The notes under the pieces were generated by a model. The model saw only the letters and a program-made list of their open reading frames with translations, was not told the DNA's origin and searched no databases. Both the position numbers and the translations under genes were made by a program. 64,000 nucleotides of DNA from an uncultured Bacteroidales bacterium (GTDB taxonomy: Bacteria > Bacteroidota > Bacteroidia > Bacteroidales > Bacteroidaceae): assembly GCA_902802265.1 (NCBI GenBank), contig CADCLN010000005.1:62001-126000 (forward strand), in the 5' to 3' direction. Shown one piece after another: positions 2,615-12,070 of this stretch; the first letter of the stretch is position 1; each line of letters begins with the position of its first letter.

Positions 2615-3706
2615 TTACGATGATTGGGGATGGTTGTCTGCGCCCCACCCCTCGATGCCTGCAATGATTTCATAGACACTTCTGACAGCCTCTAAGCTCG
2701 TCACGATACCATTACTGCCGCCTTCCACAGCGCCTGCGAAAACTTGTAATTCATGGAAAAAGCCCTGTGAATAGATTTGATTATTGATGGGCTGGGGGAT
2801 GGAATTGTTACGGGCATAAAGGTATTCGATGGTTTTGTTATGCCTGTAGATTTTCTCGTATGGAATACCGATGATGGAGGAGAGCTTTGGCTCGAAGGTC
2901 AGCAGCTCCATCTGAGAGAGACGGTAGATACCTTTTGACGTACAGACTTTGAAGGATTCCTCGGCAGATGTCCAGGTATAGGAGGTAGATAGTTCGAGGG
3001 TGCCGACAATGTGGGAATGACGAAGCATGAGGATATAGCACGCTGGGGCTACTTGCTGACATACCTGGATTTCTGGTTTGCCAAAGAGAAAACAAACAAG
3101 GTCGAGGGGATGGATAAAAAGGTCGAGGGGGGCATTACCCTCTGGATATGCCCCCGTTAAGTAATGAAGATCATAACTAATAAGATGCTCTTTTCGCAGA
3201 CGCCTTTGAAGGATTTGCACGGCAGGGGCATAGCGTTTTTGCAAGCCGACCATAGCGACAGGTGAAAGGCCACGGGTAGGCGATCTATGCTCGGGAATAC
3301 CATAAAGTCGTTGCAAGTCTATAAGCGCATCAAGTTCCTGTAGCGACTGGCAAGGCGGTTTCTCAACGAACAACGACTTACCACCTTGCAGGATGCATGA
3401 GGCTATGGAGAAATGGGCGGCAGGAGAGGCAGAGACAAAAACACCCTTGACGGTTTCGTCGGTGAGGATGTCGTCAAGCGAGGTGGTGACCTTCACATAA
3501 GGAAACTTCCGTTCTATCAGTCTGGCTTTCCGTTCCGACGTGACGCAGATATATTTCAGTGGCACGCCGAGATAGTGAAGTACAGGGTAAAGATTGGTGA
3601 GCGAGTGTTGGCCCATGCCGACGAAGGCATAAGAATATTGGTACGTTTGGGCGAGGAAGCGCTCGGTGCGGAGGCGTTTGTAGCGGTCTATCAATGACTG
3701 TATCAT
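2615..3706 (-). CDS. Gfo/Idh/MocA-family oxidoreductase
   Basis: A 363-residue protein with an N-terminal Rossmann fold (YAFVGMGQHS at about residues 26-35) and the family signature FVEKPPCQSL at about 113-122, followed by a C-terminal alpha/beta domain. Members use NAD(P) to oxidise or reduce sugars, inositols or related metabolites; the substrate cannot be told. The ATG at 3706 overlaps the stop of the upstream radical SAM gene as ATGA, so I prefer it to an in-frame start 48 bp further up. It is the last gene of a three-gene minus-strand operon led by a sigma factor-barrel fusion, which suggests a shared envelope-controlled pathway (inference). Confidence 0.8.
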   Translation of the reverse strand: MIQSLIDRYKRLRTERFLAQTYQYSYAFVGMGQHSLTNLYPVLHYLGVPLKYICVTSERKARLIERKFPYVKVTTSLDDILTDETVKGVFVSASPAAHFSIASCILQGGKSLFVEKPPCQSLQELDALIDLQRLYGIPEHRSPTRGLSPVAMVGLQKRYAPAVQILQRRLRKEHLISYDLHYLTGAYPEGNAPLDLFIHPLDLVCFLFGKPEIQVCQQVAPACYILMLRHSHIVGTLELSTSYTWTSAEESFKVCTSKGIYRLSQMELLTFEPKLSSIIGIPYEKIYRHNKTIEYLYARNNSIPQPINNQIYSQGFFHELQVFAGAVEGGSNGIVTSLEAVRSVYEIIAGIEGWGADNHPQSS

Positions 3707-4815
3707 AAATTCTTGAAATATTGGTGATAGGTTGTGTGCGGGTTTTCCGTCCACTGATATGGACCGTAGAACTTTTCAATAAACCACTTGGGCAGAAGGC
3801 GTTCCAAGTTTCGCATGAGAATGATGTCATATTTGCGGTGGAAGTTAATCCAACAGCCGTTGCAGTTCTTGGAATAATGGCACTGTGTCTGGCAGGATGT
3901 TATGCCATTGAAAATCTCGTCGAGCGTTTGGCTATGGATATTGCCAAGAGTGACGTCAAGATTCTGACAGAGCGGCACGTCCCCGTTGCTATGGACGACA
4001 AGACTGCTCATAATGCTTTGGCAGCGCAAACGTAAATGTCCACCCCGCCACTGGTCGTAGAGTGCCACAAAGTCGAAGTTCTCTTGCGTATCGTGGATAC
4101 TCTTGGGAATCTGGCCGATAAAGTCCGAGGCAGTCAGCAGTTCACTCGTCGTGTCGAAGAAGGCCATCGTTCCGTAAATGCCGATACGCACATCTACATG
4201 ATAATGTTTGGCAAAGTCTATGACGAAAGCCATGTCGCGAAACGAATTCCATGGCGACAGGCAGAACATCAGCGACAGCGGCACCTCCTTTCTCAATGTT
4301 TCCACTACCTGAACCACACGGTCGTAGCCGTCACGTCCTCTCATCCGCCTGTAAGTTTCCCTTCCGCCGTCAAGCGACACATACAGATGGCGGGGTGGGT
4401 AGCTTCGGACGGCATCTATAACCCTTTGGGCTGCCAACCCATTGGTCAGCAGCGTGTAGTTGGGATGATGGCTGTGAAGCCATGCCATGATTTCTGTCGC
4501 CTCTGGGTGCAGGACAAACTCACCCCCTTCCAGACCTACCGTAGTCCGTTTGGTGATACACTTGCTTTGCATGATTCGCTGGATGTCATCCAGTGAAAGA
4601 TGCTCCACTTCCTTCTGCCAGATATTGCAATGCTTACAACGTGACTGACAGGCTGTGGTGGCGTAAATCATCAGCCCAGTGAGCCATTTATGGTGTGGTC
4701 GCATGATGTTGTTCAGATAGAGAAAGCCGTTATGGGCATAATCATAAATGGAATACATAACCTTTTCGTTGCTGTTTCTAACTATATAGTCCGAAACGTC
4801 AACGAATGACTGCAT
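3703..4815 (-). CDS. Radical SAM/SPASM domain protein
   Basis: About 370 residues. The radical SAM [4Fe-4S] motif CQSRCKHC (CX3CX2C) lies near residues 56-63, in the context YATTACQSRCKHCNIW. The C-terminal third has a Cys-rich SPASM-like region (RCQSIMSS, LCQNLDVTLGNI, CQTQCHYSKNCNGCW) that would bind auxiliary clusters. Such enzymes modify peptides or proteins or act on small molecules; no precursor peptide gene is visible nearby. The ATG at 4815 begins 2 nt after the stop of the sigma-barrel gene; an in-frame GTG at 4824 would overlap it. The gene overlaps the oxidoreductase by 4 bp, so the two are probably translationally coupled. Confidence 0.82.
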   Translation of the reverse strand: MQSFVDVSDYIVRNSNEKVMYSIYDYAHNGFLYLNNIMRPHHKWLTGLMIYATTACQSRCKHCNIWQKEVEHLSLDDIQRIMQSKCITKRTTVGLEGGEFVLHPEATEIMAWLHSHHPNYTLLTNGLAAQRVIDAVRSYPPRHLYVSLDGGRETYRRMRGRDGYDRVVQVVETLRKEVPLSLMFCLSPWNSFRDMAFVIDFAKHYHVDVRIGIYGTMAFFDTTSELLTASDFIGQIPKSIHDTQENFDFVALYDQWRGGHLRLRCQSIMSSLVVHSNGDVPLCQNLDVTLGNIHSQTLDEIFNGITSCQTQCHYSKNCNGCWINFHRKYDIILMRNLERLLPKWFIEKFYGPYQWTENPHTTYHQYFKNL

Positions 4816-4817
4816 GG

Positions 4818-6491
4818 CTACCACGTAAATCGGATGCCAATGGGCAACGAGAACGTAAACGGATGCTCCGTGCGGTAGGTTTCAATACCGCTGCCCGTAG
4901 GGATGTAATATTGTAAACTTGGCTCTGCAAAGAAACCGATGTGGGGTGTGAAATTATACTGCACGCCCAGTCCTCCTCCTACAGACCATTGCCAAGGAAC
5001 ACGGAGCGATTGCTTCTCGGATGCCTCCAACGTACCATGCAGGTAATAACTTGTGTTCGCTGCCCACCCCACAGGGAACTCTGCCGTCAGTCCCATACTG
5101 CCGTAAAGACTCAACCCCCTTCCTTTATACATATCATATATACCCTTCACGGGGATGCCCAGATAGTGGATAGTCTGCTGCTCGCGGATGGCATTGCCGT
5201 CGGTACCTATTTCAAAATCTGACGACAATCGGCTGTAACCCAGTCCAAACTCCAGCCCGAAGCGTTCAGTCAGATGGTAGCGTAGAGCCAACGACCACGT
5301 GGTGGGCATATAGTGGTGGCTCCGACGCAAAATCTTGTCACCCGCAGGCTGGTTGGCATTATTCAAAACAATATTCATGATGATGCTACGCGTGTGTGAA
5401 TGCTCATCGGCAGGAAGCACAGACATACCATCTCCAGAAAACTCAGACAGGTAGGCTGCGTAGTCACTCCAGTTCTCAAAAGTGATGGGCGATGGCGGTT
5501 CACCTGTCGGACTTATCAGTGGTGTTTCCGTGAAACCGTATGGCTGGTTAGCCATTTGTTTACCCATGGGGGCAGCGTATGCAAAATCCAGCGACCACCT
5601 TTGTGGACGACTGGTTCCAATGACAGGATGGTTGAGGGCTATATGAGTAATATCCTTGTGTGGGACCTCTATCCTTCGGCTCGGTTTCAGCCCCGTATCT
5701 GCCTGAAGCGTATCGGGGCAGTTCTGCGCCCCAGCGAACCATTCCGACAAAGAGTCGTGCGTAACAGAATCTACGGTCTGGCAGGTTTCCTTGCTGGTGG
5801 AACGCTGACGGACGGTCACAGGCTTCTGGTGCCAGGTCCTTTGTTTCCCCCTTTCAATCACCCTTACTGTTTTGCAGATGATGATCCTTCTTTCCTTGAT
5901 GGTAGTATCCCCCCTCCTGAGCAGAAAGAACATGAGGAAACAGGTGATCAGCATAAGTACAGCCCAATACTGTCGCATCATCTTTCGCATCATCTTTTTG
6001 GCACGCGCCAGTTGCGACGACGACGAATGTGGCTCGATGCCCAGCATGGCTGCAATTTCCTTGTGTGTCATCCCTTCGAAAACGGACAGGCGGAACACTT
6101 GGCCATACCCCCTGGGTAGATTGTCTATCAGTTTGACAACTTCAGCCCAGGGCACCCCCCTTATCTCCTTTTCTTCGTCTTCTACAGTCTGGAGTTCTGC
6201 TTCGCTCGTTTCTTCGAGTGAAAGAGTGGGCTGCTGGTTGTTGTATTTCAAAGCAACATTTCTCGTGATGCCCATCATCCATGCCTCTGCTTTGGTGTCG
6301 TCGCGCAGTTTGTCAAACGAAGTAAAGATGATGACAAAAGCATCGTGCAGCACGTCGTTTACAGCCCCCTCGTCGCTGACATACCGACGGCATACGCCCT
6401 TCATCCTTGGGGCGTATGCCTTGTACAGTTCTCCCAGAGCATCTGCATCTCCTTGCCTGCACCGTTCTATCAGCTGGGTTATTTCCGCCAT
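4818..6491 (-). CDS. ECF sigma factor fused to a membrane segment and outer-membrane beta-barrel
   Basis: About 557 residues in one open frame. Residues 10-85 form a sigma-70 region 2 (LGELYKAYAPRMKGVCRRYV, VNDVLHDAFVIIFTSFDKL). Residues 115-170 form region 4 with a helix-turn-helix (GMTHKEIAAMLGIEPHSSSS). A single hydrophobic helix follows at about 177-192 (AVLMLITCFLMFFLL). A roughly 105-residue periplasmic linker leads to a C-terminal barrel from about 298 with alternating strands (SLALRYHL, GLEFGLGYSRL, LGVQYNF) and a terminal aromatic residue (IGIRFTW). The likely start is ATG 6491 (MAEITQLIERC) or 6497. It would tether a sigma factor to both membranes. No anti-sigma gene is adjacent, and the two genes downstream are close enough to be co-transcribed. 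Confidence 0.8.
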   Translation of the reverse strand: MAEITQLIERCRQGDADALGELYKAYAPRMKGVCRRYVSDEGAVNDVLHDAFVIIFTSFDKLRDDTKAEAWMMGITRNVALKYNNQQPTLSLEETSEAELQTVEDEEKEIRGVPWAEVVKLIDNLPRGYGQVFRLSVFEGMTHKEIAAMLGIEPHSSSSQLARAKKMMRKMMRQYWAVLMLITCFLMFFLLRRGDTTIKERRIIICKTVRVIERGKQRTWHQKPVTVRQRSTSKETCQTVDSVTHDSLSEWFAGAQNCPDTLQADTGLKPSRRIEVPHKDITHIALNHPVIGTSRPQRWSLDFAYAAPMGKQMANQPYGFTETPLISPTGEPPSPITFENWSDYAAYLSEFSGDGMSVLPADEHSHTRSIIMNIVLNNANQPAGDKILRRSHHYMPTTWSLALRYHLTERFGLEFGLGYSRLSSDFEIGTDGNAIREQQTIHYLGIPVKGIYDMYKGRGLSLYGSMGLTAEFPVGWAANTSYYLHGTLEASEKQSLRVPWQWSVGGGLGVQYNFTPHIGFFAEPSLQYYIPTGSGIETYRTEHPFTFSLPIGIRFTW

Positions 6492-6640
6492 GAGCATAGG
6501 GCTTCTACTCTTTATGTACGATGATAACGGAAAAGACTGCACGGGGAGCGTGTTTTTTGTGGGGTTTTTACGTTCTTCCCGCAAAAAGCGGGGACTTTGG
6601 GGTGTTTTATGGTCAGTAATTATCTTCTTTCATGAAATCT

Positions 6641-6673
6641 TTTGACCTTGTTCGGTTTTTTTTCGTACATTTG
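6641..6673 (+). promoter_or_regulatory. Bacteroidetes-type promoter of the transglutaminase-like gene
   Basis: TTTG at 6641-6644 and TACATTTG at 6666-6673 are separated by 21 nt, fitting the TTTG/TAnnTTTG promoter consensus. The ATG lies only 4 bp further, so the transcript may be leaderless or nearly so. Confidence 0.6.
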
Positions 6674-6677
6674 CACC

Positions 6678-7697
6678 ATGAAAAGAATCGTTGGATTGTT
6701 GATATGCCTGTGGGTCGTGGTTTTGACTGGGGCACAGGAGCCGGTATGCGACGCTACGTATAAGGAGATACGGTATGCCGAGGATGTTTTTAATTTCACG
6801 AATCAGGTAAGGTTTGTGAGGGTGGGCGATGGACATATCAATCGCTTTTTGGCTTTTCTGCCTATCCCTGTGTCAAACGAGTATCAAGAGGTTTCTCATC
6901 TTTCTGTTTCCGAAGGGGATGTGTATCAGGAGGGGAATTATGATAATGAGGTGCTGTATGTGGAAAGGAAAAGATTTCCCGATGGGGGTTACACCCTGAC
7001 TTCTACCTTTGATGTGCGTCCTGTCCTTGTCAAGGTGGATGTCTCCAAGATAAAGGTTTTTCGCGACTATAACCCCGAAAGCATACCTTGCAAGCGGCAT
7101 TTGGGAGACAGGGGGAAGTTCGTTATGACTCGTCATCCGTATATCGTGCAGACGGCTGACAGCCTGTGGGCACAGTCGTCCAATGTGCTTGACTATGCGC
7201 GTCGCTGCTACGAGTATGTGGCCAGTCATTTCAGGTATGTCAAGGGGAATTGGCGCACGTTGGAGCAGATCTTGAAGGAGGGAGGTGGCGAGTGTGGCGA
7301 TTTCTCAACCGTTATGGTTAGTCTGTTGCGTTACAAGGGGATTCCGTCACGGCACAATGTCTGTTTGCGACTGGCAGGCGGACTGCATGTGTGGGTGGAC
7401 TTTTACATGGAAGGTTATGGCTGGATTCCGCTGGATGTGCAAATGAAGAATGCTGACCCACGGAATGATTATTTTGGTGTGTACGACGGAACGTGTGTTG
7501 TGATGATGCAGGACATCTGCTATGATATGGGCGACAAGACGAGGGGTTTTTCTTTGAACCAACTGCAAACGTATTATTTCAAGTATTGGTATGACAGGGG
7601 TTCGTGCAGTATTGTACACAGTCATGAACCCCATCTGAATGGTTGTTCAAGGGTTGTGGACGAACCCATCACTACGCATGTGACCATTGTAAAATAA
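6678..7697 (+). CDS. Secreted transglutaminase-like cysteine peptidase-fold protein
   Basis: A 339-residue protein with a signal peptide (MKRIVGLLICLWVVVLTGAQ). The transglutaminase-like core lies at about residues 185-265: GGGECGDFSTVMVSLLRY supplies the catalytic Cys, GLHVWVDF the His and GWIPLDVQ the Asp. Family members act as proteases, crosslinkers or peptide-binding scaffolds; the substrate is unknown. The start at 6678 is preferred over an upstream in-frame ATG because the signal peptide begins here and the promoter -7 element ends 5 bp before it. The transporter gene begins 2 bp after the stop, so the pair is an operon and may couple peptide handling with amino-acid uptake (inference). 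Confidence 0.78.
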   Translation: MKRIVGLLICLWVVVLTGAQEPVCDATYKEIRYAEDVFNFTNQVRFVRVGDGHINRFLAFLPIPVSNEYQEVSHLSVSEGDVYQEGNYDNEVLYVERKRFPDGGYTLTSTFDVRPVLVKVDVSKIKVFRDYNPESIPCKRHLGDRGKFVMTRHPYIVQTADSLWAQSSNVLDYARRCYEYVASHFRYVKGNWRTLEQILKEGGGECGDFSTVMVSLLRYKGIPSRHNVCLRLAGGLHVWVDFYMEGYGWIPLDVQMKNADPRNDYFGVYDGTCVVMMQDICYDMGDKTRGFSLNQLQTYYFKYWYDRGSCSIVHSHEPHLNGCSRVVDEPITTHVTIVK

Positions 7698-7699
7698 CC

Positions 7700-9151
7700 A
7701 TGAACGATACGGATATGGAACTGAACGACTGGATTACGGCAGTGAACGACGCTGTGTGGGGCTATGTGTTGGTAGCTGCGCTGGTGGGCTGCGGTTTGTG
7801 GTTCACGTGGCGCACGGATTTTGTGCAGTTTCGTATGGTGGGCGAGATGCTGCGGTTGCTGACCAGCTCGGCGGTGGATACGGTGGGGTCGCAGGTGAAG
7901 CAGAAGAAAGCGGCGGGCAGACGGCGGCATATTTCTTCGTTCCAGGCTTTTGCCGTGAGTGTGGCTACGCGTGTGGGCACGGGCAATTTAGCGGGTGTGG
8001 CTACTGCCATTGCCGTGGGTGGACCTGGGGCTGTGTTCTGGATGTGGATGATTGCCCTCCTGGGTGCGGCTACGGCTTTTGTGGAATCTACTTTGGCGCA
8101 GCTGTTCAAGCAGAGGCACAGGGATTCGTTCATTGGCGGCCCTGCTTACTATATTCAGCGGGGGTTGCATCAGCGGTGGATGGCGGTGTTGTTTGCTGTG
8201 CTTATCACTTGTCAGTTTGGGCTGTCGAATAATTCTATCCAGGCGAACACCATCTGCGGAGCCATGCAGGAGGCGTTAGGGTGGTCGCCGCTATGGGTGG
8301 GGGTGGTGCTGGCTGCCATCGGCTTGTTCATCGTCTTTGGTGGCATTCATCGCATTGCTCATGTCAGTGCGGTGCTGGTGCCCACGATGGCTATCGGCTA
8401 CATGGTGCTGGCTGTGGTGGTTGTCGTGATGAACGTGGAGTTGATTCCGCATGTGTTGAAGGTGATTGTGACCAGTGCATTCGGCATGGAACAGGTGGCG
8501 GGTGGCGGACTGGGTGCAACCATTATGAACGGTGTGAAGCGTGGTCTTTTCTCCAACGAGGCAGGCGAGGGCAGTGCTCCCAATGTGGCGGCTACGGCTA
8601 CGGTCAGTCACCCTGTGAATCAGGGGCTGATTCAGGCGTTGGGCGTTTTTACGGATACGCTGCTGGTGTGTTCGTGTACGGCTTTCATCATTTTGGTCAG
8701 CGGCCTGTATGATGTGCCCGAACTGAATGGCATTGCTCTGACGCAGGCGGCGTTGCAGTCGGAAGTGGGTGCAGCGGGACCTGTGTTCGTGGCTGTCGCC
8801 ATCTTCCTTTTTGCTTTCTCCAGCATCATCGGCAATTATTATTATGGTGAGGCGAATGTCCGCTTCATCACGTCGTCGGCGCGGGTGATGACGGTTTATC
8901 GTGTCTTTTCTGCGGGGGTGATGGTGATGTTCGGTGCGATGGCGAGTTTTGAATTGGTTTGGAACATCGTGGACTTTTTCATGGCGCTGCTTACGGCTTG
9001 CAACCTCACCGCCATCCTGCTGCTGGGTCGCTATGTTTTCCGTCTGCTGGATGATTATCGTCAGCAGAAGCGGCAGGGCATCGCAGACCCCGTCTTCCAT
9101 CGCAGTTTGCTGCCTGAACTGGAAGACGAGTTGGAGGGATGGGGGGAATGA
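7700..9151 (+). CDS. Sodium:alanine/glycine symporter, AgcS family
   Basis: A 483-residue inner-membrane protein with about ten hydrophobic segments. The family signature is clear at about residues 92-120 (GTGNLAGVATAIAVGGPGAV, then FWMWMIALLGAATAFVEST), and a second conserved block, GLFSNEAGEGSAPNVAATA, lies near residue 280. Family members import alanine, glycine or related amino acids with sodium. The ATG at 7700 follows the preceding stop by 2 bp. The gene ends at the edge of a repeat block that separates it from the convergent 501-residue secreted protein gene. Confidence 0.9.
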   Translation: MNDTDMELNDWITAVNDAVWGYVLVAALVGCGLWFTWRTDFVQFRMVGEMLRLLTSSAVDTVGSQVKQKKAAGRRRHISSFQAFAVSVATRVGTGNLAGVATAIAVGGPGAVFWMWMIALLGAATAFVESTLAQLFKQRHRDSFIGGPAYYIQRGLHQRWMAVLFAVLITCQFGLSNNSIQANTICGAMQEALGWSPLWVGVVLAAIGLFIVFGGIHRIAHVSAVLVPTMAIGYMVLAVVVVVMNVELIPHVLKVIVTSAFGMEQVAGGGLGATIMNGVKRGLFSNEAGEGSAPNVAATATVSHPVNQGLIQALGVFTDTLLVCSCTAFIILVSGLYDVPELNGIALTQAALQSEVGAAGPVFVAVAIFLFAFSSIIGNYYYGEANVRFITSSARVMTVYRVFSAGVMVMFGAMASFELVWNIVDFFMALLTACNLTAILLLGRYVFRLLDDYRQQKRQGIADPVFHRSLLPELEDELEGWGE

Positions 9152-9251
9152 TTTTATTTACCATTTACCATTTACCAACTTTATTTACCATTTACCATTT
9201 ACCCTCTCATCCTCCAAGTCCTCCCCCTAGAGGGGGAGTTAGAGGGGGTCC
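9152..9251. repeat. Composite repeat block between convergent genes
   Basis: Copies of TTTACCA in 7-bp register (9160-9202) are followed by a hairpin unit: CTCCCCC at 9221-9227 pairs with GGGGGAG at 9232-9238, then TTAGAGGGGGTC. The complement of the last part, GACCCCCTCTAA, provides the final residues and stop codon of the minus-strand gene. Confidence 0.8.
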
Positions 9252-10744
9252 GCCATTTCCTTCATATATTTCTCGGTCAGTTGGCTTGTGTGTTTCTGAG
9301 CCTTTTGTGCCGCCTTGGTCAGCACGCCCACTTCCTTGTACATCTGAGAATAACACTGGTTCTGCTCGGTGTAGAATTTCAGGATTTCGGTGTAGATGTC
9401 AGCAAGGATTTCGTCTTTTTCTGTAGGTGGAGCAATGCTTTTGATGGTTTTGATGAAGTCGTGAAACTTCACGTCCAGTTCCTTGTTCAGTTTGATGATT
9501 TGCTTGAAATAGTTGTCTGAGCCGGTGAGTGACCTCATTTTTACAAAAGGTTCCAGAGAACTGTAGGTGGCTTTGATGGCATCCATGTTCCCCTTGAGGG
9601 CTGTGGATTGGGCTTCGATTCGCATCTCCTGTTCAGGTGTGGGGTTGAATTGAGCCTTGGCAAGGGTTGGAGAAACGTCTCCCTCATTGTAGCCGGGTAT
9701 CGTGTCAACTTCCTCCCAACCATCTCCCAACTCGTCGTCCACCACCACAGTGTCCCCCCCCCACTCATCGTCCACCACGGCAACATCGTCATTCCCTCGT
9801 TTTTGCCGTTCATTCAGCAGGCTCCTGCCTGAGTAGCGTCCCACACGTCGCTCGTAGTCTCGGTCTTCGTCGTAGTAGCCGTTGTGTACGGTGATGTGGT
9901 AGGTCTCACCAGGCACGAAGTCGAGGTTAATCCAGGCAGAGCAGAGTTCGCCGTCGGGGAAGATGCAGCGCAGCCGCCCCACCATGGGCTTCTCAAGTTC
10001 CGTCTGCCATTCAAAGCGCTTGTTGATGACGGGCACGCAAGCCACATAGTCGTCGTCTCCCATCGTGGCAAGTTCGTCGGCTGTCTCGGCGATGTAGATG
10101 TTGTAGAGCGAGTCTTTGATGTTCTCATCTACTCGTCCCACAATCTTGAACGTCTTTTTTGACGATGCCAGCTCCTTTTCGTAGATGTCGGGGCGCAGGG
10201 AGGTGATTTGGTAGATGCCGCCAAGAATCTTGCGCTCGTCGTCGGAGAGTGTCCATTTGATGGCGTAAGCATCGCGCAGTTGGGGGGTTTCAGGATTCTT
10301 GGTGCAGAGCAGCCACATTTCCTCCTTGTTCATGCCGCGGACGAGGTAACTCTTGCTCTTTCCGTTTCCGTCAACAGCCCTCAGCGAGAAAGACTCGTTG
10401 TTGCCAGGTGACAGATGGAGCAGTTGATAGGAGATAGGCTCGTCTGTCTGGAATGCCTCACTGACGGCGCCAGGATTCAACGACCTTTCGCCAGCGGGTG
10501 CAAATTTTGCGTTGGGGGCTACAAAGTAGGTGATTCTCACACTCGACTCAATCAGGTTGGTGTTGGGATTCTTGTTAACCGAATAAACCTCGTCGGAAGG
10601 GTTTCCCCAGTTCTTGATGATGTCGCTCAGCAGAGTCTTGACGTGGATTGGCGTCGTCCGCGGCTGATTTTTTGTTCGTTGTTGGGCATGGATGACTCCG
10701 AGGATGCTGCATGCGATGAGCAGCAAAGTGAATAGACGTTTCAT
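9239..10744 (-). CDS. Secreted protein of unknown function, third gene of the sigma-factor operon
   Basis: A 501-residue protein with a signal peptide (MKRLFTLLLIACSILGVIHA) and no domain I recognise. It has an acidic low-complexity stretch near residues 318-345 (DDEWGGDTVVVDDELGDGWE) and a probably helical C-terminal part (about 370-495). It lies 15 bp after an anti-sigma-like gene and in the same operon as an ECF sigma factor, so it may be an envelope effector or sensor partner (inference). The last four residues (ADPL) and the stop codon come from a GACCCCCTCTAA repeat unit, so the native end may have been replaced. Confidence 0.7.
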   Translation of the reverse strand: MKRLFTLLLIACSILGVIHAQQRTKNQPRTTPIHVKTLLSDIIKNWGNPSDEVYSVNKNPNTNLIESSVRITYFVAPNAKFAPAGERSLNPGAVSEAFQTDEPISYQLLHLSPGNNESFSLRAVDGNGKSKSYLVRGMNKEEMWLLCTKNPETPQLRDAYAIKWTLSDDERKILGGIYQITSLRPDIYEKELASSKKTFKIVGRVDENIKDSLYNIYIAETADELATMGDDDYVACVPVINKRFEWQTELEKPMVGRLRCIFPDGELCSAWINLDFVPGETYHITVHNGYYDEDRDYERRVGRYSGRSLLNERQKRGNDDVAVVDDEWGGDTVVVDDELGDGWEEVDTIPGYNEGDVSPTLAKAQFNPTPEQEMRIEAQSTALKGNMDAIKATYSSLEPFVKMRSLTGSDNYFKQIIKLNKELDVKFHDFIKTIKSIAPPTEKDEILADIYTEILKFYTEQNQCYSQMYKEVGVLTKAAQKAQKHTSQLTEKYMKEMADPL

Positions 10745-10759
10745 ATTTTGTTCTTGTTT

Positions 10760-11434
10760 TTATTTTTGTGCCATTTTTTCTAATGTGTATTTTGAAATCT
10801 CCAGCTCCAGTTCCACCCATTTCAGGTAGGCCTCGTTGGCTTGCTTTTTCATCAGGGCGATTTCTTCGGGAGTATATTTGTAGTTTTCTGGACGGGTGAT
10901 GGGGATGTCGCTTTCGGTCAGTGTTTCGGGGATGGGCTGAGGGTGTGATGCTTGGGTTACTTCGACAGCCTCTTGAACAGGTGGAGCTGGGGCTGGTTCG
11001 GGTTCTTCGGCAGGCGGCAGTTGTGTGGTTGTGTGGTTGTGCGGTTGTGTGGCCTTGCGCTTTCTTGCGGTTTTTGTCTCTGCTTTTGCCAATGTCGTGG
11101 GCTGAAGGGTTTCTTGCTGCGGTTCCACGATGGTTTTCCGCTCCACTTTTACGATGACTTTCTGTCTTCTTGGTGGGGTGTCTTTTGTCGGGGTCAGGAA
11201 GAAGAACATGATGCCAGCCACACAGGCGGCGACCATGAGAAGACCCCCTCTAACTCCCCCTCTAACTCCCCCTCTATGGGGAGGACTTGGGAGGAGGTTT
11301 TCCCTTTCCACACGTTGCATCAGTCGGGCGTTCAGGTCGGCTGGCATCGGCGGGAGTTCCTGTTCGATCAGACGAATGGCAGGGGGCAGGTTGGTGTCCT
11401 GCTGTCGTAGCTTGTCGAATGTTTCCTCTTTCAT
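10760..11434 (-). CDS. Membrane-anchored anti-sigma-factor-like protein
   Basis: A 224-residue protein with a cytoplasmic N-terminus (about 1-63), one transmembrane helix (LLMVAACVAGIMFFFL, about 64-79), a basic then Pro/Glu-rich periplasmic stretch and a C-terminal helix (EEIALMKKQANEAYLKWVEL). Its ATG overlaps the sigma-factor stop (11431-11434), and the topology fits an anti-sigma protein, although no ZAS zinc motif is visible. Residues about 47-63 (PSPPHRGGVRGGVRGG) are an in-frame translation of the GACCCCCTCTAACTCC repeat just before the membrane helix. A second low-complexity piece (PHNHTTTQL) comes from a CACAACCA microsatellite. Confidence 0.65.
   Translation of the reverse strand: MKEETFDKLRQQDTNLPPAIRLIEQELPPMPADLNARLMQRVERENLLPSPPHRGGVRGGVRGGLLMVAACVAGIMFFFLTPTKDTPPRRQKVIVKVERKTIVEPQQETLQPTTLAKAETKTARKRKATQPHNHTTTQLPPAEEPEPAPAPPVQEAVEVTQASHPQPIPETLTESDIPITRPENYKYTPEEIALMKKQANEAYLKWVELELEISKYTLEKMAQK
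11241..11296. repeat. GACCCCCTCTAACTCC-type repeat inside the anti-sigma-like gene
   Basis: AGACCCCCTCTAACTCCCCC, a second CTAACTCCCCC unit, then CTATGGGGAGGACTTGGGAGG lie within the coding region and keep the frame open. The same units occur between genes at 9208-9251 and 52728-52817 and inside the pullulanase gene. Confidence 0.8.
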
Positions 11435-11990
11435 GATTGTAACATTTTGATGATTTTACAAAGTTTTTTTCTCGTTCTGCTGAGTTTCGAGGCGATGGTT
11501 GTAGGTATCGACTCAGTGATGTAGGCAATTTCTTTCAAACTCATTTCTTCGTAATAGAACATGGTGATGATGGCACGTTCTTCGGGTGGCAGATGGGTCA
11601 GTGCGGCTTTGATGAGTTGCACGGTTTCGGGGTTGGGCTGCCCCAGGGTTTGTGCTACTTCGGTGTCGGACAGCATCTCTGCTTCCTCGCCGCAATCTTC
11701 AAGGTAGATGACGGACGTGTGCTTTTTTCTGAGGTAGCTGACGGACTCGTGGTAAGCGATTCGCGAGAGCCAGGTCTTGAGCGAGGATTTCTGTTCGTCG
11801 TACATTTTTATATTTCGAAAGACTTTGATAAAGACATCTTGATAGACTTCCTCGGCATTCTCCAGTATGGGGATGAATCTTGCCACCTGTGCGGGAGACA
11901 TCACGTCCGTAGCGACCAGAGCATCTGCTGCTGGGCTTTGGGATTTTGCTGCCGCAATCCCGCTATCAGGTTTGTCTCTGTTTCTGTCAT
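11431..11990 (-). CDS. ECF RNA polymerase sigma factor, apparent one-base frameshift
   Basis: The main frame encodes region 2 (ENAEEVYQDVFIKVFRNI, SSLKTWLSRIAYHESVSYL) and region 4 (LPPEERAIITMFYYEEMSLK, EIAYITESIPTTIASKLSRT), typical of Bacteroidetes ECF sigma factors. The expected N-terminus (MTETETNLIAGLRQQNPKAQ) is in another frame, from ATG 11990 to a TGA at 11903-11901. Adding one base near 11905-11910 would join the two into a normal-length protein. As it stands, the TGA overlaps an in-frame ATG (TGATG at 11903-11899), which would allow reinitiation of a shortened factor. It leads an operon with an anti-sigma-like gene and a secreted protein. A sequencing error cannot be excluded. Confidence 0.7.
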
Positions 11991-12070
11991 GCCAAAGTTT
12001 TCGTTTTCTACCTATATATACGCAGAATGAATGGGAAACATTGCAGGATTGCAACTTTTTTGACAGAAAA

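Follow-up and report, generated by a model that had tools for sequence, protein, structure and literature searches.

The closest described relatives of the protein reported here are found among the Das/Dma systems. According to the accessible text of PMC13088901, a Das/Dma pair consists of a separate sigma factor and a membrane protein that comprises an anti-sigma domain, a helix, a disordered tether and a C-terminal barrel. Dma3 of Bacteroides thetaiotaomicron, a Dma-family protein of unknown role, is described in that paper of 2026 as starting with a sigma domain of its own, without an ECF21 sigma gene next to it. Expression of the dma3 locus (bt_2778-2779) rises in the dma1 as well as in the dma2 deletion, and the altered vesicle profiles of these deletions persisted when dma3 was deleted (PMC13088901). 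BT_2778 is also among the iron-responsive genes listed in the accessible part of PMC10434189. Fusions of sigma factors to membrane-bound parts are known from other groups as well. IutY of Pseudomonas putida (ECF243) is a sigma factor that carries a fused membrane segment and is released through Prc and RseP (PMC5411451, accessible text), and in the corresponding part of PMC8999054 the ECF sigma factors of the ECF48/52/53 groups of Actinobacteria and of ECF36 have fused regulatory extensions that span the membrane.

The window, i.e. the whole stretch of 64,000 nucleotides analysed here, encodes on its minus strand a protein with the same order of domains as Dma3: an N-terminal sigma factor (Pfam regions 2 and 4), a helix, a tether and a C-terminal barrel, the likeness being one to the published description of Dma3 (PMC13088901, accessible text). 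At the level of that description the layout had been reported before; the window gene adds another variant with an operon of its own, which differs from Dma3 by its radical SAM/SPASM and Gfo/Idh neighbours and a matching promoter-like element. Unlike Dma1 and Dma2, as they are described there, it has no N-terminal anti-sigma domain, with the sigma factor in its place, and no adjacent ECF21 sigma gene. In IutY, too, the sigma factor continues at its C-terminus into a membrane segment and a periplasmic part; that periplasmic part, however, is an anti-sigma domain with a separate outer-membrane receptor as its partner, whereas here the barrel is in the same chain (PMC5411451, PMC8999054, accessible texts). 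The extensions of ECF48/52/53 and ECF36 are a zinc-finger anti-sigma domain, or N-terminal helices with DUF2275, and an outer-membrane barrel is not mentioned for them in the accessible text of PMC8999054. The sequence-only reading had put the locus forward as an undescribed system; given the domain order of Dma3 as described (PMC13088901), this now applies to no more than the enzyme operon, the promoter code and the family history. New, as far as searched, are the breadth and history of the family, the operon with radical SAM/SPASM and Gfo/Idh enzymes and a promoter-like element that tracks the sigma clade. At title and abstract level, no sigma-membrane-barrel fusion beyond Dma3 was found in print; the 2024 PNAS paper by Pardue, in which Dma3 reportedly appears as well, and the 2021 ECF reclassification lay outside this coverage, and more may be in print.

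The fused gene, its parts and the two genes behind it are arranged as follows.

4818..6497, minus strand: fused sigma-membrane helix-tether-barrel gene, 559 aa (translation, Pfam)
6243..6428, minus strand: sigma region 2, residues 24-85 (PF04542 Sigma70_r2, E 4.6e-10)
5988..6143, minus strand: sigma region 4, residues 119-170 (PF08281 Sigma70_r4_2, E 3.7e-12)
5919..5969, minus strand: single membrane helix, residues ~177-193 (hydropathy)
5601..5909, minus strand: predicted periplasmic tether of low conservation, residues ~197-299, ~103 residues (alignment)
4821..5600, minus strand: predicted C-terminal outer-membrane barrel, residues ~300-559 (PF13568 and PF13505)
3703..4758, minus strand: radical SAM/SPASM enzyme, 351 aa, start by homology (PF04055, PF13186)
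2615..3706, minus strand: Gfo/Idh/MocA oxidoreductase, 4-nt overlap with the radical SAM gene (PF01408)

The frame is open from an ATG at 6497 (559 aa) or a second ATG at 6491 (557 aa) to the stop at 4818-4820. Translation, hydropathy and Pfam bear out the claim that one frame joins sigma regions 2 and 4, a membrane helix, a linker (~103 instead of the ~105 residues claimed) and a barrel. The strongest hydrophobic stretch of the window protein scores 2.43 and the next best 0.70 (Kyte-Doolittle), indicative of one membrane helix, which starts ~18 residues past the conserved SSSSQL of region 4. The barrel start at residue ~300 was taken from an alignment of 63 fused proteins (A2); OMP_b-brl_2 covers residues 403-522 and is above the curated cut-offs, as are both sigma regions. 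A profile search of the PDB matched sigma factors and found no convincing barrel; the barrel is assigned by Pfam and would be located in the outer membrane. The periplasmic anti-sigma domain of IutY is FecR-like; a domain of this kind gave no Pfam match in the window protein at E 0.1 and is absent among the 7 Pfam families matched by the 63 members of alignment A2 (E 0.001). No separate sigma gene adjoins the fusion, the neighbours being the radical SAM gene and a divergent transglutaminase-like gene. The host genome (2.88 Mb, 63 contigs, 86% complete) contains another fused gene, which shares 49% identity over its whole length and has a methyltransferase gene behind it.

Homologues with the same domain order do exist: 123 distinct fused frames were identified in the fetched loci, of which the named genome collection supplied 73 and other loci 50 (identical proteins counted once; the short or duplicate loci L001-L035, L076-L079 and L180-L226 left out). 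Sigma factor and barrel share one frame in 80/80 loci of the named collection, which are the best 80 of 409 relatives, with a bias towards the clade of the window; in two loci (L106 and L149) the fused frame begins at about window residue 32. The titles of the 80 name Prevotella, Alloprevotella, Prevotellaceae, Bacteroidaceae and Bacteroidales, mostly as MAGs, and many come from the rumen or other ruminant gut samples. Within the family, fused frames were verified in at least 46 of 201 genomes from the fetched neighbourhoods and in three more via short loci (G065, G171 and G200). Outside the family, only one genome (G419) was verified among the matches listed in the order search (295 genomes), with two copies; since at most four candidates were scored per genome in this search and in that of the phylum (296 genomes), absence elsewhere carries little weight.

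All 63 aligned proteins match Sigma70_r2 and Sigma70_r4_2, and 62 of them match OMP_b-brl_2. The tether measures 100-138 residues in this set, and the mean identity to the window protein is 0.72 in the sigma part, falls to 0.28 in the tether and reaches 0.62 in the barrel part. Conservation of sigma factor and barrel together with a variable tether is the pattern expected where a spacer separates two functional domains. In 119/123 fused proteins, the residues preceding the helix carry a higher net charge than those following it. Three copies are broken, by a stop in the tether (L168), a stop at the joint (L176) or a frame change in the tether (L235); the sigma part stays open in all three, and they may be assembly errors. 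Longer fusions suggested by open frames of 591-647 in G304, G107, G149, G055 and G182 were discarded, as the full loci turned out to be two-gene.

One operon with the radical SAM/SPASM and Gfo/Idh enzymes, as proposed, is supported. The statement that the genes overlap or abut applies to the two enzymes, which overlap by 4 nt, but not to the fusion: the start of the radical SAM gene at 4758, chosen by homology over an upstream ATG/GTG given in the ORF list, lies 59 nt past the stop of the fusion, and this gap holds a promoter-like box of its own. The neighbourhood is conserved in part. In clade A, to which the window belongs, a radical SAM gene follows within 3.5 kb in 60 of the 77 loci with at least 1.5 kb of sequence and is missing from this range in the other 17, some of which are cut by contig ends. 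Over all clades, 110 loci have at least 1.5 kb downstream, and 70 of them contain a radical SAM gene, 13 a methyltransferase gene, 27 neither and none both. Behind the radical SAM gene, the Gfo/Idh gene is present in 41/47 such loci of the named set and in 23/23 of the others. The 201 family genomes contain 37 radical SAM homologues in 35 genomes (E 1e-60 or better); the gene also occurs without an adjoining fusion (L160, L161, L163-L167), and some radical SAM-Gfo/Idh pairs are fusion-free. The pairing of fusion and enzymes is strong but not obligate. In clade E, a methyltransferase gene is found behind three of four fused genes; as a guess, this fused clade may be nearer to Dma3 than the window clade. 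As to the substrate of the two enzymes, the NCBIfam matches shown for both lie below the cut-off and PDB relatives are few or general; any substrate named for them would be putative.

Related genomes also hold two-gene loci, in which a ~180-aa sigma factor is accompanied by a ~420-aa protein with a short N-terminal segment, a helix, a tether and a barrel. These unfused loci (L070-L075 and others) match the Das/Dma layout as described (PMC13088901, accessible text), and most of them share the -35-like box discussed below. The N-terminal segment, a putative anti-sigma segment, measures 46-52 residues in the proteins first compared and is centred around YSEPxPxGLWxxLE. It was recognised in 16/17 intact unfused barrel proteins (7 of the 17 built the model, so the independent count is 9/10; the 17 pairs are a fetched subset of many more), and a model of these N-termini found it in 0/123 fused proteins. 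Its absence from all 123 implies that the sigma factor occupies the former anti-sigma position. The idea that sigma factor, anti-sigma factor and envelope protein had all merged has therefore to be abandoned: the segment is gone, and only ~20 residues separate region 4 from the helix in fused proteins. The operon at 9239-11990 of the window had been cited as an example of the separate arrangement. Its sigma factor is indeed a plain one (Pfam regions 2 and 4), accompanied by a 224-aa protein without Pfam match and a 501-aa protein without a match above cut-off, but it is not a demonstrated unfused version of the fusion system.

Trees comprising 56 of the 123 fused proteins unite the fused sigma factors in a single clade (100/100) that lies within the unfused ones, and put the fused barrels together on one side of a branch (99/100); the three broken copies fall inside the fused group. 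Clade labels were given by hand from the tree and to the remaining proteins by best sigma alignment score. The grouping in the trees and the loss of the segment are explained, for the data in hand, by one fusion event with anti-sigma loss, and a single origin of the fused members put into the trees is what their sequences indicate. The window sigma factor groups with those of Dma-like loci. Paralogues linked to a methyltransferase have a barrel near that of the window and a distant sigma factor; between the window protein and its own paralogue, identity is 48% in the sigma part, 34% in the stretch between sigma and barrel model and 68% in the part covered by the barrel model. This mismatch probably stems from exchange or gene conversion between paralogues.

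Upstream of the fused gene and again behind its stop, pairs of short boxes resemble a promoter.

6531..6542, minus strand: -35-like box GTGCAGTCTTTT, upstream of the fusion
6513..6519, minus strand: -10-like box GTACATA, a variant of GGACTATA, upstream of the fusion
4804..4815, minus strand: -35-like box ATGCAGTCATTC, between the stop of the fusion and the radical SAM gene
4783..4792, minus strand: -10-like box GGACTATATA, before the radical SAM gene

Among the relatives, including loci with as little as about 30% protein identity, the first box, RTGCAGTCTTTY, lies ~41-70 nt ahead of the start of the fused gene, and the second box follows 14-16 nt after it. As TGCAGT[CA], the first box is present within 150 nt upstream of 112 of the 119 fused genes with enough sequence and missing from seven, including both clade D members; in 96/122 loci it recurs within 170 nt behind the fusion. 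Shuffled upstream stretches contained it in 32/2460 cases, and the density of TGCAGTCNT is 220 sites in 39,360 nt of these stretches versus 115 in 3,079,280 nt elsewhere. The second box, typed at fixed spacing (TATC also occurs in the spacer of 14 clade-A sites), is of the GGAC type in 74/87 members of the window clade, with 11 near variants that include the window's own GTACATA, a mismatch to the GGAC consensus. The methyltransferase and B2 clades have the TATC type, and the six upstream sites of clade C read CTCC. The type follows the sigma clade in 111/112 typed upstream boxes (shuffle mean 85, 0/2000 as high, a contrast overstated by the relatedness of the rows). Upstream and downstream second boxes agree in type in 85/88 loci and differ in three; in L058, where the downstream box was not typed, they differ by eye. 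The unfused sigma genes have TGCAGT[CA] in 10/17 loci, mostly as TGCAGTATTTTT with another second box. In the window's own genome the 12-base first box has 8 exact sites, four of which precede the fusion, its radical SAM gene, the fused paralogue and the methyltransferase gene of the latter; the other four are inside unrelated genes, where the second box was not seen. This search was for exact matches in a genome that is 86% complete, and degenerate sites may be missed. We infer that the bipartite element is a candidate promoter of the sigma factor itself, with a very small regulon. A -35-like box common to fused and unfused sigma genes would fit the published cross-induction of dma3.

Taken as a whole, we consider it reasonably probable that the fused protein is a one-protein signalling device of the Dma3 type, with a tethered sigma factor, proteolytic release and an autoregulated circuit. 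The N-terminal ECF sigma factor would reside in the cytosol, anchored at the inner membrane by the helix near the end of region 4, and the flexible tether would span the periplasm to a C-terminal barrel seated in the outer membrane. The covalent tether would stand in for an anti-sigma factor, so that a seated barrel keeps the sigma factor at the membrane. Disturbance of the barrel, its failed assembly or the binding of its signal may cause the tether to be cut, upon which an intramembrane protease of the RseP type would free the sigma factor; the window's genome has one M50 (RseP-like) protease gene. Free sigma factor would then read the dedicated promoter, RTGCAGTCTTTT and GGACTATA separated by 14-16 nt, in front of its own gene and of the radical SAM-Gfo/Idh pair, giving a small, positively autoregulated circuit. 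The release is the step of this scheme that we put forward with the greatest caution. It is plausible that the sigma factor is freed solely through proteolysis, as the sequence-only reading had it, and a direct one-protein link between outer membrane and RNA polymerase is plausible too; the tethered sigma factor might also act at the membrane. It is tempting to speculate further, although we are inclined to doubt it, that the system is an envelope-spanning switch free of anti-sigma factors and silenced by tethering alone, in which barrel and sigma/promoter box were swapped between paralogues and one type of outer-membrane sensor came to drive different enzyme modules (radical SAM/Gfo-Idh or methyltransferase).

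If the sigma factor recruited RNA polymerase while still tethered, no cleavage would be needed, and a change in conformation or assembly of the barrel would act by altering the tether. The sigma factor is complete in regions 2 and 4, the segment that could hold it off was found in none of the 123 fused proteins, and the presumed positive autoregulation needs some basal activity. However, the joint between region 4 and the helix has only about 20 residues, and a mid-helix proline, present in 111/123 fused and 0/17 unfused helices, favours cleavage, as does the precedent of IutY. Helix-breaking residues favour intramembrane cleavage, and a mid-helix proline is expected in substrates of intramembrane proteases; no passage on this effect was found in two papers examined for it, and the window's own helix is without the proline. 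We regard transcription from the membrane as unlikely. Two products from one gene, either by an internal start near the joint that yields an exported barrel with the helix as signal sequence, or by processing into separate sigma factor and barrel, appear quite improbable. A Met is found in the joint of 116/122 scored fused proteins, and the three broken copies keep an open sigma part; the position of the Met within the final region 4 helix, however, may reflect a structural role, and the broken copies may be assembly errors.

The TGCAGTC element could also be part of a leader peptide or the site of another regulator instead of this sigma factor's promoter. It begins RTG-CAG-TCT-TTT, readable as a start codon and MQSF, and 83/108 such frames are in frame with the start codon of the fusion gene and 34/108 are open up to it. 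A stop comes first in 74/108, which disfavours a leader peptide; sigma clade and type of the second box go together, and the related TGCAGTATTTTT with its different second box stands before unfused sigma genes (TGCAGT[CA] in 10/17). All this leaves the idea a slim chance. An assembly or sequencing error that joined two genes can practically be dismissed: nothing was found in its favour, 123 distinct fused frames exist, sigma factor and barrel share one frame throughout the best 80 of 409 relatives in the named collection, the same genome has a fused paralogue, and fusions occur in two families. Consistently split homologues or an indel, either of which would by the sequence-only reading have spoken against the fusion, were not encountered, three broken copies standing against the 123. 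The preferred reading, a tethered sigma factor released by proteolysis, would, if true, describe about the shortest route between outer membrane and RNA polymerase, with sensor, restraint and transcription factor in one chain, and it makes testable how a sigma factor without anti-sigma domain is silenced. Because the promoter boxes can be read from the sequence, targets can be predicted, which is the piece missing for Dma3, and two enzyme modules gain a predicted envelope-linked control in Prevotella-like gut bacteria.

A further gene is often found behind the fusion. It encodes a lipoprotein-like protein of ~185 aa, for which two copies scanned gave no Pfam match, and is not present in the window. 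It follows the fusion in 42/110 loci and is preceded by TGCAGTC in 37 of these 42.

The window's own genome carries a second fused sigma-barrel gene (L002/L048, G000:C24:37395-39077), and the class I methyltransferase gene behind this paralogue has its own box of the GCATCTAT type. A gene for a 944-aa protein near a methyltransferase-linked fusion (L049:11414-14297) also has its own TATC-type box and is a candidate for a further target. In many relatives, an additional gene with its own promoter-like box is present:

L111:7791-8357 and relatives, lipoprotein-like gene of about 185 aa, between the fusion and the radical SAM gene

Its product has no match in Pfam for the two copies scanned, and the gene is absent from the window. 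The radical SAM-Gfo/Idh pair also occurs with no adjoining fusion, in L165, L166 and L167 (62-63% identity in the radical SAM protein); a TGCAGTC box was not found within the 140 nt inspected there.

Other genes in the window are:

6657-9148, (+), transglutaminase-like protein and sodium:alanine symporter (Pfam), divergent neighbours of the fusion
9239-11991, (-), separate sigma gene, then genes for a 224-aa and a 501-aa protein

The sequence-only reading had cited the latter genes as an example of the usual separate arrangement. The 224-aa and 501-aa proteins have no Pfam matches above the cut-off, which leaves these genes as no more than a possible unfused counterpart of the fusion system.

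Three family members are broken, by a stop in the tether (L168), a stop where sigma joins the helix (L176) and a frame change within the tether (L235). The sigma part is open in each, and the breaks may be sequencing errors.

The unfused sigma genes of the two-gene, Dma-like loci (L070-L075, L229, L231, L232, L237) share a TGCAGTA/TTTTT box and a CATTTATA-like second box, possibly a promoter code for the whole group.
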